Source: a virus. From it: DNA of 36,906 nt. The translations under genes were made by a program, and so were the position numbers. The notes under the pieces were generated by a model, which saw only the letters and a list, made by a program, of their open reading frames with translations, had not been told where the DNA came from and searched no databases. Location: positions 1 to 36,906 of the IMG/VR virus record IMGVR_UViG_3300042691_021608; one strand, given 5' to 3'. Positions within the stretch are counted from its first letter, which is position 1; each line of letters starts with the position of its first letter. Positions 2,370 through 36,906 of this stretch are shown here, in pieces.

Positions 2370-3070
2370 TGAGCCTTATGCTGCATGAGCTGCTGGTGGG
2401 CGGTGCGGTCGATGACAGTATTTATGTTGCGCAAGAATTTATTCCTACCGGAACGAGCGTCGGGTCGATAACGCTACCCGCAGGAATCATCGCTGGCGAT
2501 CTTCTCATTCTCAATTGGACCGGTTTCAGATTTGGCGCTGCACCCGCGTACTCAGCCCCGGCTGGCTGGAACAATAGAAACAACTTAGTTACCGGCACAA
2601 ATCAGTCTCACACCAGCTTTCACTGGAAAATTGCCAACGGAACCGAGTCTGGCACAACACTATCAATATGGACTTCGCAGAATCTTGGCGGTTTCGGATT
2701 GCTGGTTTTAAGGCGCAGGTCGGGACCAATTCTGTCAGCAACTGAGTTTGATTATCAATTCTACAGCAATCTTGTGGCGGAAAACGCGACCAGAACAATA
2801 AACGCAGTTGGCAGGACGAAGCCACTTTTTGTATACTTGACAGCGTTCGCTGGTTCGGGGGTAACTCAAGATCTTCAGTTTACGACGAGCATGACTCCTG
2901 ACTTTGAAATTACAAGAATAAATGTGCCAGGTTTTGTAGCCAACAGAATTTTGAAAAAAACATACAGCGGGTCAGAAGTACTCTTGAACGATACGTACAG
3001 ATTAAACACCACGGCTGGTGCCGGTGGTGGTGGGTACACCACTCGTTCGGTAATCTTTGAAATCACCTAA
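2369..3070 (+). CDS. Lectin-like or fibre-tip protein, hypothetical
   Basis: The start is taken at ATG 2369, which overlaps the preceding stop, rather than at the upstream in-frame start at 2333 that lies inside the previous gene. This gives 233 aa. The protein is predicted beta-rich, with a GDLLILNWTGF strand followed by an APAGWNN turn, a W-K strand, and a Gly-rich C-terminus before SVIFEIT. The same order of elements (NDLLVIF, VAGWN, WWKF, RG, PALVL) occurs in the protein at 15978-16802, suggesting a shared fold. DNA here is more AT-rich than the flanking genes, consistent with recent exchange of a host-recognition module. No catalytic motif is visible. Confidence 0.5.
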   Translation: MSLMLHELLVGGAVDDSIYVAQEFIPTGTSVGSITLPAGIIAGDLLILNWTGFRFGAAPAYSAPAGWNNRNNLVTGTNQSHTSFHWKIANGTESGTTLSIWTSQNLGGFGLLVLRRRSGPILSATEFDYQFYSNLVAENATRTINAVGRTKPLFVYLTAFAGSGVTQDLQFTTSMTPDFEITRINVPGFVANRILKKTYSGSEVLLNDTYRLNTTAGAGGGGYTTRSVIFEIT

Positions 3071-3123
3071 CCCGCCAACCTCTTCCACGGCGGTCCCAAC
3101 TTCAAGACTAGAAGGAAAACACA

Positions 3124-9006: not shown

Positions 9007-9028
9007 TCAAGCGAAGCAGGGGTTGAAG

Positions 9029-10195
9029 ATGTTTAACGAGTTTGCTACATATGAGCGAGCCGAAGGGGTGCTGGAAACACCGTCTTCGGCTCTAACCGAG
9101 GACGCGATGGAACCGCATCAGTCGGCTGCTGGCACCTTAGCCACGGCCACGCTCACATTCAAGTTTCGCCTGCGCGACAAACACGCCGCCGAACTCAACC
9201 GGCAGGCTCGCGCCGTGAACTATGTGTGGAACTTCTGTAACGAGACTCAGCAGAAGGCAGCGCGTTCCGGCAGGAAGTGGCTGTCCAAATACGATCTGCA
9301 AGACCTGACAGCAGGAGCCAGCAAAGAGTTAAACCTGCATGCTCACACTATTCAGCAGGTCTGCTGGACCTATGAGCGTTCTCGTAAGACTCACAAGAAG
9401 GCGTGGCTGAAATTCCGTGGCCGCAAGTCTCTTGGATGGGTGCCGTTCAACCAAGGACACGTTACCTTCGACGGCGCCGCCTTCACCTTCCGCAAGGTGC
9501 GCTATGAGCCGATGCATTCGCGTGAAGAACTGAAGCCGGGTACAAAGGTGCTGGCTGGTTCGTTCAACCAGGATGCGCGTGGCCGCTGGTACATCAATAT
9601 CCCGGTCGAAGTCCCCGCTTCAGAAGCGGCAGAGCGCCCAACTGTAGGCATCGATCTCGGCCTTCACGATCTTGCCACGCTGTCAGACGGCAACAAGATC
9701 GAGGCACCACGCCTCTATCGCGCCTCCGAAGAGAGGCTCGCAAAGGCACAGCGGGCAAAGAAAACCCCGAAGCGCGTCCGAAACATTCACGCGAAGATCG
9801 CCAACCGCCGCAAGGATCACTTGCACAAGGCATCGGCATCAATCGCGAAAACCTACGGGCTGATCATCGTTGGTGATGTCAGCGCAAAGAAACTCGCCAA
9901 GACCAGCATGGCGAAGAGCGTCCTCGACGCTGGCTGGTCGAGCTTCAAGTCAATGCTTGCATACAAGGCCATTAGGCATGGTGGGTGCATGATTGAAGCT
10001 GATGAGCGTTGGTCTACCCAGACTTGCTCTTGTTGCGGCTCACTACCGCCCGAGAGGCCGAAAGGTATCGCAGGTCTTGGAATAAGAGAATGGCGGTGCA
10101 GCGATTGCGGAACGGTCCACGACCGGGATGTCAACGCAGCCAAGAACATTCTCCGCGTGGGACAACACGCGCTTGCAGAAGGAGCCTCAGCATGA
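9029..10195 (+). CDS. tnpB: TnpB RNA-guided nuclease (IS605 OrfB)
   Basis: The protein is 388 aa. ATG 9029 is preceded by AGGGG at good spacing. It has the N-terminal OrfB helix-turn-helix region with LNRQARAVNYVWNFCNETQ, a RuvC-I motif VGIDLGLHDLATLSDG (Asp about 209), a zinc ribbon CSCCGS...WRCSDCG, and RuvC-III HDRDVNAAKN (Asp about 367). At the RuvC-II position the usual Glu of an IVVEDL-type motif is replaced: the sequence reads LIIVGDVSAKKLAKT. Acidic residues near 323-326 (IEADERW) may supply the missing ligand, as reported for TnpB variants with a rearranged catalytic site. The family cleaves DNA guided by an RNA from the element's 3' end. An extra N-terminal segment of about 40 residues precedes the usual start of homology. 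Confidence 0.85.
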   Translation: MFNEFATYERAEGVLETPSSALTEDAMEPHQSAAGTLATATLTFKFRLRDKHAAELNRQARAVNYVWNFCNETQQKAARSGRKWLSKYDLQDLTAGASKELNLHAHTIQQVCWTYERSRKTHKKAWLKFRGRKSLGWVPFNQGHVTFDGAAFTFRKVRYEPMHSREELKPGTKVLAGSFNQDARGRWYINIPVEVPASEAAERPTVGIDLGLHDLATLSDGNKIEAPRLYRASEERLAKAQRAKKTPKRVRNIHAKIANRRKDHLHKASASIAKTYGLIIVGDVSAKKLAKTSMAKSVLDAGWSSFKSMLAYKAIRHGGCMIEADERWSTQTCSCCGSLPPERPKGIAGLGIREWRCSDCGTVHDRDVNAAKNILRVGQHALAEGASA

Positions 10196-20112: not shown

Positions 20113-20710
20113 TGGCAACTCCACCGACCACACGCAGGAACTCAGCCTTTTGAGCGTCCCATGCGGCGGCCCGTGCGGCGTCCCATGCGGCGTCCCCTGC
20201 GGCGTCCCATGCGTCCCCTGCGGCGTCCCATGCGGCGTCCCCTGCGGCGTCCCCTGCGGCGGTCCCTGCGGCCCATGCGGCGGCCCATGCGGCGTCCCAT
20301 GCGGCGTCCCCTGCGGCGACCCATGCGGCGTCCCATGCGCCGTCCCCTGCGGCGTCCCCTGCGGCCCCTGCGGCGTCCCATGCGGCGGCCAGTTCCTTAT
20401 CCGTCGCATGTCCGTTGGCGTGGCGCTCGGCCACATCCAGTGCCGCGATACTGCGCTCGTCCGTCATCAGGTGCTGGACCTGACGGGCGCAGTAGACGGC
20501 AAACAGACGCCACTCGCGGGCGTGCTGCGGCTCGGCGCGGCAGCACCACAGTGCGTCATCGAGGCCGTTGATCTCGACAATGCGCGCGAACGGCAGCGGC
20601 TCATCATCTGCGTCGGTCTTGCCCAACCCCTTAAGCAGCTTCTGCCAGCCCTCGCGGCAGGGGCCGTGCGCCCGGATGCGGTTCAGTGTTGTTTCACAAA
20701 GATCACGCAT
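20105..20710 (-). CDS. Phage protein with Ala-Trp-Asp tetrad repeats
   Basis: ATG 20710 gives 201 aa. The N-terminal 125 residues (MRDLCETTLNRIRAHGPC, RIVEINGLDDALWCCRA, LFAVYCARQVQHLMTD, ALDVAERHANGHATDKELAA) form a conserved helical domain seen in many proteobacterial phages. Residues about 110-190 are four-residue repeats such as AWDA, AGDA and AAWA, then it ends KAEFLRVVGGVAND. The DNA repeats are 12-bp units in 20155-20385. The tetrad period suggests a helical rod or stacked structure. The function is not established. Confidence 0.7.
   Translation of the reverse strand: MRDLCETTLNRIRAHGPCREGWQKLLKGLGKTDADDEPLPFARIVEINGLDDALWCCRAEPQHAREWRLFAVYCARQVQHLMTDERSIAALDVAERHANGHATDKELAAAWDAAGAAGDAAGDGAWDAAWVAAGDAAWDAAWAAAWAAGTAAGDAAGDAAWDAAGDAWDAAGDAAWDAARAAAWDAQKAEFLRVVGGVAND
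20155..20385 (-). repeat. 12-bp tandem repeat encoding Ala/Trp/Asp/Gly tetrads
   Basis: Units of TGCGGCGTCCCA / TGCGGCGTCCCC recur with a few 9- and 6-bp interruptions over about 230 bp. Unit length is a multiple of three, so copy-number changes keep the frame. Confidence 0.85.
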
Positions 20711-23375: not shown

Positions 23376-23548
23376 TGTCCCGCAGCGACCTCAACCTTCT
23401 CTACGACTTGAAGCGCGCGATGCTGCGGCCAGCCTACGACCGGCTGGCCAACGCGCACCACATCCGCCGCGACCCGCGCACCTATGAAATCTCGTGGGAG
23501 CCGACCGCCATCGAGGCGAAACTGCGCGAAGCGGGGCTCATCACATGA
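23375..23548 (+). CDS. Small basic hypothetical protein
   Basis: ATG 23375 overlaps the previous TGA, and its own TGA overlaps the next ATG, giving 57 aa. The sequence is basic (LNLLYDLKRAMLRPAYDRLA, RRDPRTYEISWEPT). It is too short for reliable prediction, but coupling at both ends supports it as a gene. The function is unknown. Confidence 0.5.
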   Translation: MSRSDLNLLYDLKRAMLRPAYDRLANAHHIRRDPRTYEISWEPTAIEAKLREAGLIT

Positions 23549-24378
23549 AGCCGTGGCATGAAACAGACTCCTACACTTTCAAATGGCCGGAGCTTTCCGA
23601 CCGGGTCGCGCAGGACTTCATGCTGCGCGTGTCGGCGCACCTGATGGAGAAGACGCCCGCCGAGCGGGTTGCCTACATCAATGAAATTCTGCCCGCCCTG
23701 CGCGCGCCGACCGGATCGGTGTCGGCCTTCGACCAGCACCTCGTCATCACCGCGCTCATGACGTGGCGCGAAGACAACCGTGGAAAAAATTCAATGAACC
23801 GCCTCATCATCACTGGCACCAATGCCGAAATGCCCCACAACGCCGCGCAGATGATCGCTGCACGGCAGCGGCGCTACAATCGCACCGGCCAGGACATCCC
23901 GCGCGTCCCGCATTTCGACTCACATAAATCCGAACGTGAACTGCGACAGCACCTTGAAGGCAAGTTCTTCCGCGTAAACGGCAAGGACGTGAACGATGTC
24001 GAAGAACGCAAGGCAGAGGAAATCAAGGCTTTCACCGAAAAGCTGGAAGAGGATAATCAGGTCAGGGAAAAGGTCAAACGCTGGATGGCGTCGGCCAGCA
24101 GGGTCGAGGCGATCATTACCGCAGTCGCCGCCGCCCATCGTGTCGGCCCCAAGGACATCATCGGCAAGAGCCGTTCATACCCTGTCGCTGCCGCCCGCAT
24201 GCACGCCATGGCGCTGACACGCGAAATCACATGGCAATCATATGTCTGGATCGGGAGGAAATTCGGTGGCCGGGATCACTCGACCGTCCTCCACGCATTC
24301 AAGACATGGTCAGAGCGGAAGTGGCTCTATCAAGCGCAAGTCGAAGCCGTCGAGCGCCAGCTGGAGGCGGTGGAGTGA
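23545..24378 (+). CDS. DnaA domain IV-containing DNA-binding protein
   Basis: ATG 23545 is preferred to the upstream in-frame start. The protein is 277 aa. The C-terminal residues (about 186-260) match DnaA domain IV: RVEAIITAVAAAHRVGPKDI, IGKSRSYPVAAARMHAMALT and the signature GGRDHSTVLHAFKTW. There is no AAA+ ATPase region; the N-terminal 180 residues are unrelated and charged, with a helical linker. It could bind DnaA boxes and either recruit host DnaA, compete with it, or act at the phage origin. It is downstream of recombination genes and upstream of the SSB. The stop overlaps the following GTG (GTGA). Confidence 0.75.
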   Translation: MKPWHETDSYTFKWPELSDRVAQDFMLRVSAHLMEKTPAERVAYINEILPALRAPTGSVSAFDQHLVITALMTWREDNRGKNSMNRLIITGTNAEMPHNAAQMIAARQRRYNRTGQDIPRVPHFDSHKSERELRQHLEGKFFRVNGKDVNDVEERKAEEIKAFTEKLEEDNQVREKVKRWMASASRVEAIITAVAAAHRVGPKDIIGKSRSYPVAAARMHAMALTREITWQSYVWIGRKFGGRDHSTVLHAFKTWSERKWLYQAQVEAVERQLEAVE

Positions 24379-31276: not shown

Positions 31277-31336
31277 ATGAAAATCCAACACAACATCAAT
31301 GGTATAGGCACGCACGCGAGCGAAACAGGTGTCTGA
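31277..31336 (+). CDS. Possible 19-aa leader peptide before the primase-helicase
   Basis: ATG 31277 follows AAGGTGAG at good spacing and reads MKIQHNINGIGTHASETGV, ending inside the start region of the next gene. Possible translational coupling. The size allows little confidence. Confidence 0.25.
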   Translation: MKIQHNINGIGTHASETGV

Positions 31337-33608
31337 CATGCTGCTCGCATTTGGGAGAAACGGCGCTCGCGACACAGACCTGGTGTCAAAGGAATACACT
31401 TGGGAACAATTCGCGCAGAGGCTTTCCAAGCCCAGCATAGGGGCGAAGGATGGCAGCTATGTTGTTCGGGGCGGGAAACTACGCGAACCCAAGAGATCCG
31501 ACGAAAACCTCATGGAAGCGGAACTCCTGATTATTGACGGAGACAGCCGCTTTGACCTTGAGACAGGAGAAATTTTGCGCGGCGCACCGCCAATAGAACT
31601 GGCGAAAGCAGCCCTCGATGCGCTCAATTATCGGTATATCGTCCACACAAGTTATTCCTACGTGCCCGGCGAGGTGTGGAAATATCGTATTTTCATCCCT
31701 GCCAAGATAGCCGACACATTCGAACTTTCTGCAGCCGTCAATCTTGTCATTGATCAGCTAAACGCAAACGGCTGCCCAATCGTGGACGTAAAGGAAAACC
31801 ACACTTTCAGCCAGGCATGGTATCTTCCACGCTGCAAGCCGGAATACCTTGAGGCATTCAAGTGCTTCGCCAGCCTCACCGGCAAGGACGTGGATGTCAA
31901 CGCCGCCGTCAAGGCCCACAAAGCCCGCGCCAAGGCCGACGAAGCGTTAAGGGCACGGCAGGAGCAGCCGAAGCCGGAAGCCGCTCCAGAGGCCTCCAGG
32001 AACGGCGACGGGCCGATCGACACCTTCAACAAGGCGGCAACGATGGGCCTCGTCCGCAAAATGCTCGAAGACGCCGGATACAAGTTCGCGTTCAAGCGTG
32101 GCGACAGCCTGCGCTTCATGGCACCGCAATCCGAAACGCGCACAGCCGGTGTTACAGTTTTCAAGGGCCGCCAGCGCGGCGACATCGTGGCTTACTCCCA
32201 TCACGGTGCCCACGATCCCTTGAGCGGACGCCTCACGGACGCATTCGGCATCCTGTGGCACGTCACCTACGCGGGTGACCAGGAAGCCGCCCTGCAGCAC
32301 GCCAAGGGCGCCATCGGCTGGGCCAGCAAGCGCGATCCGCTCGCCGGGTTCGACGCCGTGGAGATCTCGCCAGAGGATTTTAACAAGGCCCGACCGGACG
32401 CCGAGAAGCCGGATGGGCAGAAGAAGCCCATTTTAGCCAACCCGTTCAGGCTGGTTGCCGAGGGTGATATTCCTCCCCGCCAGTGGGTCTACGGGCGTCA
32501 CCTGATCCGCCGGTTCGTCAGTGCCACCGTTGCCCCAGGTGGCGTGGGTAAGTCATCCCTGAGCTTCGTGGAGGCCATGGCAATGGCAACAGGTAAGCCG
32601 CTGCTGGGCGTGAAGATCGAAGTGCCGCTGAAGGTGTGGGTCTGGTGCCTGGAAGACCCCCGTGAGGAGCTTGATCGGCGTTTCACGGCTATCGCAAAGC
32701 ATTACGGGGTGGCCGGAAATGACATCGGTGACCGGCTGTTCCTGAATTCCGGGCGTGATACGCCATTGTGTGTCGCCCGGCAGGAGGCGCGCACCGGCAC
32801 TATCATCATCGAGCCTGACATGCCGCAGATGGAAGCGGAGATTGCCCGGCTTGGTATCGATGTGGTGGTCATCGATCCTTTCGTCGCCTCCCACATGGTG
32901 AGCGAGAACGACAATGTGGCCATCAATACCGTCATGCGTCAGTGGGTTCTGCTGGCAGAACGCTGCAACATAGCCATCGAACTGATCCACCATACCCGCA
33001 AGAACGGCGATGGCGAGGTTACAGCCGAAACCAGCCGTGGAGCCAAAGCCCTCACGGATGCAACGCGCGACACCCGCGTCATCAACCAGATGAGCGAGGC
33101 AGAGGGTGCCAGATTTGGTGTCGAGAACCGCCGCCTGCACTTCCGCACATACTCCGACAAGGCGAACCTCGCGCCGCCAGCCGAGCAGGCTGACTGGTAC
33201 AAGCTGGAGAATATTGCCCTGCTGAACGGTCCCGGTGGTCAACCGGGCGACTATGTGGGCGTGGCATCCAGGTGGGAGATTCCCGGCCCGTTTGCCAAGG
33301 TCAGCCGCGAAACCATCCACGCCCTCCTGACGGCCATCGACATCGGCGTCATCAACGGCGACGGACAGCAGACCGGAACACCCTACAGCCCCACAAAGCA
33401 GGGCCGCAGCAACGCCCGCTGGGTGGGCCAGGTCATCATGGATATCGCCACTATGGAAGAGCCGGAAGCGAAGCGGGCGATCGATGCCTGGGTGGCCTCT
33501 GGAGTACTGGTCGTCGCCGATTTTGAACATGGTCGGAAGACCGTCAAAGGCGTCTCAGTGAACAAGGCAGCGTGGTCGGAAATGGTGGAGGGTGCAAATG
33601 TCAGGTAG
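31329..33608 (+). CDS. Primase-helicase (RepA-like)
   Basis: The protein is 759 aa from GTG 31329 or ATG 31338. The N-terminal third looks like a primase-polymerase domain: LLIIDGDSRFDLETGE with D70 and D72, VWKYRIFIPAKI and FSQAWYLPRC. A charged linker (about 200-230) leads to a second small domain. The C-terminal half is a RecA-fold helicase with Walker A VAPGGVGKSSLSF (about 402-409), a WCLEDPREELDRR motif, Walker B DVVVIDPFV (D516), and HHTRKN, as in hexameric RepA/RSF1010-type helicases. It probably primes and unwinds at the origin found in the next gene. Its transcript has its own operator-like motif. Confidence 0.8.
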   Translation: MSDMLLAFGRNGARDTDLVSKEYTWEQFAQRLSKPSIGAKDGSYVVRGGKLREPKRSDENLMEAELLIIDGDSRFDLETGEILRGAPPIELAKAALDALNYRYIVHTSYSYVPGEVWKYRIFIPAKIADTFELSAAVNLVIDQLNANGCPIVDVKENHTFSQAWYLPRCKPEYLEAFKCFASLTGKDVDVNAAVKAHKARAKADEALRARQEQPKPEAAPEASRNGDGPIDTFNKAATMGLVRKMLEDAGYKFAFKRGDSLRFMAPQSETRTAGVTVFKGRQRGDIVAYSHHGAHDPLSGRLTDAFGILWHVTYAGDQEAALQHAKGAIGWASKRDPLAGFDAVEISPEDFNKARPDAEKPDGQKKPILANPFRLVAEGDIPPRQWVYGRHLIRRFVSATVAPGGVGKSSLSFVEAMAMATGKPLLGVKIEVPLKVWVWCLEDPREELDRRFTAIAKHYGVAGNDIGDRLFLNSGRDTPLCVARQEARTGTIIIEPDMPQMEAEIARLGIDVVVIDPFVASHMVSENDNVAINTVMRQWVLLAERCNIAIELIHHTRKNGDGEVTAETSRGAKALTDATRDTRVINQMSEAEGARFGVENRRLHFRTYSDKANLAPPAEQADWYKLENIALLNGPGGQPGDYVGVASRWEIPGPFAKVSRETIHALLTAIDIGVINGDGQQTGTPYSPTKQGRSNARWVGQVIMDIATMEEPEAKRAIDAWVASGVLVVADFEHGRKTVKGVSVNKAAWSEMVEGANVR

Positions 33609-35208: not shown

Positions 35209-35541
35209 TCATCTTGCAGCATCCGCAATAATCTCTTCCGCCCATTGGTTCAGGCTTTTGCCTGCCAATTTGGCACGCAAGGCAGCTCGCGCATGAACCT
35301 CCGGGGAAAAACGAAACATCACCTTGCCGGAATATGGACGCTCCGGTGCCTTGCCCACCGCTTTGCAGGTCTCCACGTAATCGTCGACAGCCTCCGCAAA
35401 AGCTGCGCGCAGCCCTTCAACCGTGTCACCGTGGAAACCCACGATATCGTTGATCCCGGCAATATGCCCAACGAAGCAACCATCATCGGAAGCAAAGTCG
35501 ATCCGGGCGCTGTATCCGTTATATTCCATCACGTTTTTCAT
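35209..35541 (-). CDS. hicB: HicB antitoxin
   Basis: The protein is 110 aa. It has the degenerate RNase H-like fold sequence YNGYSARIDFASDDGCFVGH, then HIAGINDIVGFHGDTVEGLR and AFAEAVDDYVETCKAVGKAP, followed by a ribbon-helix-helix tail (KVMFRFSPEVHARAALRAKL, GKSLNQWAEEIIADAA). HicB binds HicA and the operator. It starts inside the hicA stop (ATGA), the usual toxin-first order. Confidence 0.9.
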   Translation of the reverse strand: MKNVMEYNGYSARIDFASDDGCFVGHIAGINDIVGFHGDTVEGLRAAFAEAVDDYVETCKAVGKAPERPYSGKVMFRFSPEVHARAALRAKLAGKSLNQWAEEIIADAAR

Positions 35542-35792
35542 GGTCTGATTCCCAATGCTCCAAGGAAGTTGCGCGCGTCTTCAACCTGGTATCTCTTCGC
35601 CTCTTTCGTAGGGTGCGGCCGATGGAAGGTTGCCACGATGCCGTTCAATTCGAACTTGACCCGTGACCCGCTACCTTCGATGACGCGGCAGCCGCATCCA
35701 ACGAGCAATCGTTCGATGTCGTTCCACGCGATGCCGGGGTTCGTCGGTTTCGCGAATACCTGTTCCAGCGTCTTTCGTTGCTTCCCGTTCAT
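35538..35792 (-). CDS. hicA: HicA mRNA interferase toxin
   Basis: The protein is 84 aa, with dsRBD-like fold motifs ERLLVGCGCRVIEGSGSRVK, FELNGIVATFHRPHPTKE and YQVEDARNFLGALGI. This is the HicA class with SRVxF and FHRPHP motifs. The canonical GSH His is not at the usual place; His in FHRPHP may act instead. The ATG at 35792 abuts the operator, leaving no room for a ribosome site, so it may be read from a leaderless mRNA. Confidence 0.85.
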   Translation of the reverse strand: MNGKQRKTLEQVFAKPTNPGIAWNDIERLLVGCGCRVIEGSGSRVKFELNGIVATFHRPHPTKEAKRYQVEDARNFLGALGIRP

Positions 35793-35845: not shown

Positions 35846-36145
35846 ATGAAACAGGTTGACCCCTACTACCGCAGCCCGGCATGGGAAGCCCTGCGCAAGG
35901 CAGCCCTCAAGGCCGCACACTGGCGATGCGCCGACTGCGGCCAGGGTGTACGCGGCCAAGCCGCCGGGCAATCCCGCCCCATCGTGGACCACATCGTGCC
36001 ACGCCGCAAAGGCGGATCAGACGCGATGCACAATCTTCGAGTGCTTTGCCTTCCATGCCACAATCGCAAGACACATTGGGAAGACCGAAACACCCATGAG
36101 CAGACCGGCGCAGATGGGTTCCCAGTGGGCAAGGGCTGGGGGTAG
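35846..36145 (+). CDS. HNH endonuclease
   Basis: The start is set at ATG 35846 (MKQVDPYYRSPAWEALRKAA); ATG 35804 is possible but lies in the hicAB operator. This gives 99 aa. It is the compact phage HNH: HWRCADCGQ (zinc Cys pair), RPIVDHIVPRRKGGSDAMHN (DH motif), LRVLCLPCHNRKT (second Cys pair and HNH). Small HNH proteins of this type are usually just upstream of terminase genes and help DNA packaging or cos cleavage, so the packaging genes may lie beyond the right edge. Confidence 0.85.
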   Translation: MKQVDPYYRSPAWEALRKAALKAAHWRCADCGQGVRGQAAGQSRPIVDHIVPRRKGGSDAMHNLRVLCLPCHNRKTHWEDRNTHEQTGADGFPVGKGWG

Positions 36146-36218: not shown

Positions 36219-36467
36219 TCAATCCTTGGGCCAATCTATCGGGCGATATCCGGCAAGGTATGCTTCCATCAGCCTCACCATTCGCGGCGCCGGTGCCCGG
36301 TGCGTTGACTGGCTCGGGTCGCTCTCAATCGCCCGCAGCGACCTCGGATCTGTGTCAAGCATGACAGCCAACTCAGTCAGCGACAGCCCCAACTCCTCAC
36401 GCGCCGCCTTGAACTGGTCGTGATCCCAGAAAATCCTGTTCGGCTTTACCTGATTGATCGTATTCAT
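36219..36467 (-). CDS. XRE-family helix-turn-helix protein
   Basis: ATG 36467 follows AAAGGGAAAAA, giving 82 aa; the longer frame extends into AT-rich non-coding DNA. The core FKAAREELGLSLTELAVMLD, TDPRSLRAIESDP is a helix-turn-helix of the Cro/XRE group, ending AYLAGYRPIDWP. It lies by itself on the minus strand next to repeats that could be its operators. It is probably a repressor of packaging-side or lysogeny genes. Confidence 0.75.
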   Translation of the reverse strand: MNTINQVKPNRIFWDHDQFKAAREELGLSLTELAVMLDTDPRSLRAIESDPSQSTHRAPAPRMVRLMEAYLAGYRPIDWPKD

Positions 36468-36628
36468 GTTTTTCCCTTTTTGCAGTCGTGAAATTTTAAC
36501 TTGAGTTCTGTTTCGATTGGTCCGCCGGTAGAAAAAATCAAAATCGATTTTCCCCCGGAAAATAATATTTCTGGGAGGCAAATTTTTTTTCAAAATGCCA
36601 CTATACCCCCCAAAGTTGTTCTCCTCGA
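36468..36628. promoter_or_regulatory. AT-rich non-coding region upstream of the XRE gene
   Basis: No gene is seen. The stretch is much more AT-rich than the rest of the window, with runs such as AAATAATATTT, and should contain the leftward promoter of the XRE gene. A specific -35/-10 pair is not assigned. Confidence 0.4.
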
Positions 36629-36728
36629 CCCCCCCCTATATCAGTCCGATATATGCCAATCCGATATATGCCAGCCCGATATAGCCCCCCCTATATCAAT
36701 CCGGCATATATCGGATCGATATATATCC
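36629..36728. repeat. Iteron-like CCGATATATGCC repeats
   Basis: ATCCGATATATGCC-type units occur at 36645-36657 and 36660-36672, a degenerate one follows near 36675, and an exact inverted copy lies at 36703-36716. Two copies of CCCCCCCTATATCA(G/A)TCCG start at 36630 and 36685. No coding frame is supported. Confidence 0.75.
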
Positions 36729-36761
36729 AAGCCATTGATTTTGCTTGGTTTTCCTTTCCGA

Positions 36762-36906
36762 TGCCAGCCCGGTGGATCGGTGCCAGCCCGGTGGATCGGT
36801 GCCAGCCCGGTGGATCGGTGCCAGCCCGGTGGATCGGTGCCAGCCCGGTGCCAGCCCGGTGGATCGGTGCCAGCCCGGTGCCAGCCCGGTGGATCGGTGC
36901 CAGCCC
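36762..36906. repeat. 19-bp tandem repeat running off the window
   Basis: The unit TGCCAGCCCGGTGGATCGG is present in six full copies. Two 11-bp short copies (TGCCAGCCCGG) alternate with full ones after the fourth, and a partial copy meets the edge. The full extent cannot be known. Confidence 0.9.

Follow-up and report, generated by a model that had tools for sequence, protein, structure and literature searches.

Two kinds of repeat at the non-coding edge of a tailed-phage contig: a possible control and boundary region beside the packaging genes

The right edge of the window, by which we mean the entire 36,906-bp IMG/VR virus record analysed here (G000), is real non-coding phage DNA built from two kinds of repeat, CCGATATATGCC iterons and a tandem array, and these repeats run up to the contig end. 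The array appears to be one of two that flank a small gene group beside the packaging genes. We tentatively read this edge as the left margin of non-coding control and boundary DNA, located at the right end of a siphophage whose terminase is of the HK97 type; an origin of the arrays as neutral minisatellites is nearly as likely and explains much of their structure.

The window covers only part of a tailed-phage genome and lacks terminase, portal and capsid genes; none of these was recognised among its proteins, which are of tail, lysis, nuclease and replication types. A TnpB/OrfB_IS605-type protein with a Cas12f1-like TNB domain (9023-10195, plus strand) lies among the phage tail genes, and about 20 tandem copies of a 12-bp unit (20154-20387) fall in overlapping ORFs of both strands; translated from the minus strand, they would give AAWDAAGDA-type repeats. 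A protein with the DnaA C-terminal DNA-binding domain (Bac_DnaA_C; 23542-24378, plus strand) is encoded in a replication-type gene cluster, and an AAA_25 RepA-like ATPase at 31329-33608. Closer to the repeats, a HicA/HicB toxin-antitoxin pair (35209-35792, minus strand) sits just left of an HNH endonuclease gene (35846-36145, plus strand), which in HK97 is the kind of gene found just left of cos, and an 82-residue XRE/HTH_3 regulator follows at 36219-36467 on the minus strand. Homologues of the HicA/HicB pair and of the XRE regulator were not found in the two related contigs described below (L036 and L027), and scans of viral contigs with the XRE and HNH proteins returned no relatives.

The whole window holds three exact copies of CCGATATATGCC, two direct (36646-36657 and 36661-36672, plus strand) and one inverted (36703-36714, minus strand), all inside 36646-36714, against a mean of 0.01 in 100 shuffles, none of which reached three. 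A degenerate copy with two mismatches occupies 36676-36687 on the plus strand. The copies form a nested inverted repeat (36659-36716) with 14-bp outer arms ATCCGATATATGCC/GGCATATATCGGAT, 7-bp inner arms GATATAG/CTATATC and a 6-nt C loop; when 36629-36740 was folded as single-stranded DNA, the z-score was -4.7 and none of 200 shuffles was equally stable. The left part of array 1 follows on the plus strand at 36758-36906, with six 19-bp units, two 11-bp units and one partial unit cut by the contig end. The 19-bp unit TGCCAGCCCGGTGGATCGG has six exact copies there and none in 100 shuffles, while minus-strand RNA folding of the array was weakly better than that of shuffles (z -2.1). The shuffles of the two repeat units served as the chance tests; a Markov test built from this same low-complexity sequence produced high counts now and then and was set aside. 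These exact, shuffle-tested copies confirm the iterons and the 19-bp tandem array of the sequence-only reading. The higher-order pattern of full and short units that it also described is real but limited to the second half of the window's part of the array, where unit lengths run 19, 19, 19, 19, 11, 19, 11 and 19 bp in order before the partial unit.

A 27-base array pattern had only one other match in viral contigs, the 11,766-bp contig IMGVR_UViG_3300042691_040341 (L003). This contig begins within array 1, in the same orientation as in the window, and its first 26 bases are identical to the last 26 of the window; the array occupies its positions 1-552. At the far end there is no sequence overlap, and the last ORF of L003 continues in frame into the first ORF of the window when the two are abutted. 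Since L003 starts in the array, supplies the missing genes and has a far end in frame with the window start, it most likely borders the window; we infer, with high probability, that both contigs come from one phage or from two nearly identical ones. Tetranucleotide composition is weak evidence for the join, because the correlation between window and L003 (0.936) is nearly matched by relatives (0.90-0.92) and by one of seven other contigs, which reached 0.87. If the two are joined, array 1 spans at least about 675 bp, and both contigs break inside it.

Beyond array 1, L003 carries a GP88-family gene on the minus strand (903-1742), with a strong terminator-like hairpin on the same strand (629-661) between the GP88 side and array 1. 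Array 2 lies on the other side of the GP88 gene, at 1873-2149, close to the small terminase gene (terS); the window alone does not reveal this pairing of arrays around a gene. About five near-identical palindromic units of 27 bp, with the inverted repeat TGACTGAC/GTCAGTCA, occupy 2151-2283, directly before a G-run and a predicted cos; CCGATATATGCC iterons are absent from L003. The small and large terminase genes are at 2428 and 2870, followed by a homing endonuclease, a protease/capsid protein, a portal protein and an open collagen-like ORF. The terminase proteins match TerL_nuclease/TerL_ATPase and Terminase_4 in Pfam, with HK97-like phages as the best named matches (36%). An HK97-family large terminase (TerL) with terS upstream is thus present in L003, and belongs to the window only through the inferred join.

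A TerL scan yielded seven loci, L003 itself among them. Three (L005, L006 and L027) were counted as one lineage, as L005 equals L006 over their overlap and L006 is from the same contig as L027. The L027 lineage is 78% identical to L003 in TerL and 68% in GP88 and has the same layout, with a left-open array (1-297), leftward genes including GP88, a second array (2779-3096), iterons and terS. Its array units have diverged to GCCAGCCCGGTGAACGT, GCCAGCCCGGTGACCCT, GCCAGCCCC and GCCA (GCCA x 13), and the longest string identical between its arrays and those of the window and L003 is 13 bp. A 12-bp core, GCCAGCCCGGTG, is identical in both lineages; L027 contains 21 of them where chance predicts 0.01, every one inside one of its two arrays, and no exact core was found outside arrays in four records. 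Core spacing is irregular, at 11, 19, 25-30 and up to 87 bp. The CCGATATATGCC iterons of L027 (3152-3206) keep the 15-bp spacing seen in the window; they lie on the opposite strand and right of array 2, whereas those of the window lie left of array 1. The copies in L027 are direct, so the nested inverted repeat is not kept there as a structure. The place of the 27-bp palindromic units of L003 is taken in L027 by the CCGATATATGCC iterons.

A third dataset supplied L036, which has homologues of seven of the 13 window proteins tried. Here the order of an HNH gene, about 250 bp, a 117-bp array of L027-type units and the first bases of the L027 cassette is seen directly. The succession of HNH gene, array 1 and GP88 side is thus visible in a relative. 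Two copies of AATTTTTTTTCAAAACGCCACTATAGGG lie between HNH and array in L036 (198-220 and 346-368, minus strand), with a short palindrome after each whose two arms change in step (CTGAAC/GTTCAG and CTAAAC/GTTTAG). A conserved motif left of the window repeats, AAATTTTTTTTCAAAATGCCACTATA (36580-36605, plus strand; one copy in the window), is the same motif as these paired copies left of the L036 array. In L008, whose TerL is about 50% identical, no array was evident by eye from HNH to terS. A loose core pattern matched 19 stretches, of which three were kept (L003, L027 and L036); the other 16 were rejected as chance, being single matches with two or three GCCAGCC copies in 150 bp. Scanning viral contigs with a GP88 alignment added L039 alone, which was rejected too; its terminase-like gene is a different one and it lacks arrays of this kind. 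In genome contigs, a 25-bp array pattern had no matches and a TerL-alignment scan confirmed no relative, so that neither a host nor a prophage emerged. Rfam at gathering scores gave no match in L001, L003 and L027, and BLAST searches of named phages and plasmids with array or intergenic DNA were likewise negative, a result of little weight as simple repeats were masked.

The arrays are non-coding because their units of 4-19 bp break every reading frame. That the array might instead be part of a protein-coding gene with in-frame repeats is suggested by frames that stay open at the window end, but frames in L003 are open alike on both strands and, divided by 3, the unit lengths of either lineage leave differing residues (1/2/0: 31/7/1 and 18/4/0 in arrays 1 and 2 of L003, 6/10/9 and 34/10/0 in those of L027). 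The continuation into a gene with in-frame repeats that would mark a coding array was not found, as the array in L003, its probable continuation, ends outside genes, and the chance of a coding array is practically negligible.

The sequence-only reading had offered an XRE operator field and a partition centromere among possible functions. AT-rich inverted repeats are usual for XRE-type autoregulation, and in the window the XRE gene is the divergent-side neighbour of the iterons. Against an operator field of this protein, L036 and L027 carry the array, and L027 the iterons too, with no XRE homologue detectable in the 29 kb compared. As no such homologue was found in these relatives, the array does not depend on an adjacent XRE gene, and we consider the operator explanation very improbable. 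The centromere suggestion gained no support: neither ParA/ParB nor ParM/ParR was matched in Pfam among the 27 window proteins scanned, a subset of the ORFs.

A packaging site (cos or pac), or an array of small-terminase binding sites, would fit an HK97-type terminase and the position of array 2 and the palindromic repeats, which end within about 300 bp of terS. In both L003 and L027, however, a G-run and a TTAACCAGTGT...GAGTT block that resembles the surroundings of HK97 cos lie outside the arrays, between the repeats and terS, and the repeat beside this cos-like block differs between the two. As around HK97 cos, an HNH gene lies to the left and terS to the right, with a G-run upstream of the end, here a predicted one; in HK97 about 320 bp separate HNH and cos and there are no arrays, whereas here about 3 kb with arrays and cassette separate HNH and terS. 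The small terminase of HK97 depends on one 15-bp site (+15 to +29) that lies immediately downstream of the cut (PMC11331095). Because of the cos-like block and this single site, a packaging role of the arrays, which had also been suggested from the sequence, is highly unlikely.

The repeats could also form all or part of a replication origin bound by some factor such as the phage protein with the DnaA C-terminal domain. Two lineages have AT-rich direct iterons at a constant spacing of 15 bp, and the phage encodes the Bac_DnaA_C protein and the RepA-like ATPase mentioned above. These genes are 3-13 kb distant, array spacing is irregular, and no TTATCCACA-like box with at most one mismatch was found near the repeats in four records; judged by what marks an iteron origin, neither an adjacent initiator gene nor DnaA boxes lie near them. 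In the P1 plasmid, 19-bp iterons stand on both sides of repA. Like lambda-type and P1 iteron origins, the present repeats are direct and near replication-type genes, and as in P1 two arrays flank one gene; unlike in those origins, the flanked gene is GP88, no known initiator, the spacing is irregular and there is no adjacent initiator gene. A second origin, also among the suggestions made from the sequence alone, is neither supported nor dismissed by these observations, and we consider it unlikely.

A control and boundary region is the reading that we prefer, albeit tentatively, and the paired arrays around GP88, near terS, in both L003 and L027 argue for it. HK97/lambda-type packaging, in which the right end enters the cell first, is the basis for the end assignment: the arrays would lie on either side of a leftward operon, expressed early and located at the right end of the chromosome, which is injected first. 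DNA-binding proteins that regulate or insulate this operon would have putative repeated sites in the core GCCAGCCCGGTG and, independently, in the CCGATATATGCC iterons. The arrays may lengthen and shorten through slippage or recombination, and we propose this as the reason for a constant core amid varying unit lengths and copy numbers. The reading of a leftward early operon draws on the place of GP88 at genome ends in linear records. Six named phages were chosen from 30 listed records out of 263; in all three linear ones GP88 is annotated first or second from a genome end (Nyxis, CRP-6 and Lo5R7ANS); the circular records (TRX32-1, HMO-2011 and ctYwJ313) are uninformative on this point. Tandem repeats upstream of GP88 in these phages are suggestive at best, with a score of at least 100 in two of the six (CRP-6 and ctYwJ313) and not in the other four. 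A literature search for GP88 found no paper naming it.

Operators or iterons in multiple copies near the early regions of phages are already known. The stoperators of cluster A mycobacteriophages are many asymmetric sites in one orientation (PMC6550527). Cluster A phages (L5; Nyxis) resemble the present phage in a leftward GP88-family gene near the right end with a long non-coding stretch before it; they differ in that stoperators are dispersed 13-bp sites, not tandem arrays, and no cluster-A-type repressor was identified here. Two putative forms of the stoperator motif are absent even from the Nyxis stretch and hence allow no sequence comparison.

Several observations speak against a control region. 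The irregular core spacing is unlike that of helically phased sites, and the iterons are on different sides of the cassette in the window and L027 and absent in L003. No leftward gene adjoins array 1 in L036, L008 is without an evident array, and units such as the GCCA x 13 of L027 look like plain slippage. Immediately upstream of GP88, neither L003 nor L027 showed a promoter-like site, and L027 had no terminator comparable to the L003 hairpin. In the close rival, the GC arrays are neutral minisatellites, grown from a short GCCAGCC-rich seed in tolerated intergenic DNA and amplified by slippage and unequal exchange, with the iterons alone functional, if anything. Nested units of 4, 9, 10, 11, 17 and 19 bp, long single-unit runs, an array of 117 bp in L036 against at least 297 bp in L027, the seed-like TGCCAGCCCGA within the window iterons and the irregular spacing of cores all fit such an origin, which we regard as a real possibility. 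Less easily accommodated are arrays that flank the GP88 cassette with the same orientation in two lineages, and a 12-bp core that is identical though the rest has diverged.

A more specific form of the control reading is that the paired arrays are a boundary element of a phage early operon, of a kind not described before, whose GCCAGCCCGGTG core is recognised by a phage or host protein. Variable-length arrays on both sides would insulate or tune the first-injected genes, and array sequence would evolve in concert within each phage lineage. We regard this specific proposal as quite unlikely. In the literature searches made on phage repeat arrays, nothing matched paired core-bearing arrays flanking a GP88 cassette by a predicted cos.

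The repeat array explains why the contig stops where it does and indicates where the missing quarter of the phage genome is to be found. Binding, recombination and length change can be compared between two lineages whose arrays correspond; if the core is a binding site, these would offer a compact model of the control that repeat arrays, placed at the end of a phage genome, exert on the first-entering genes.
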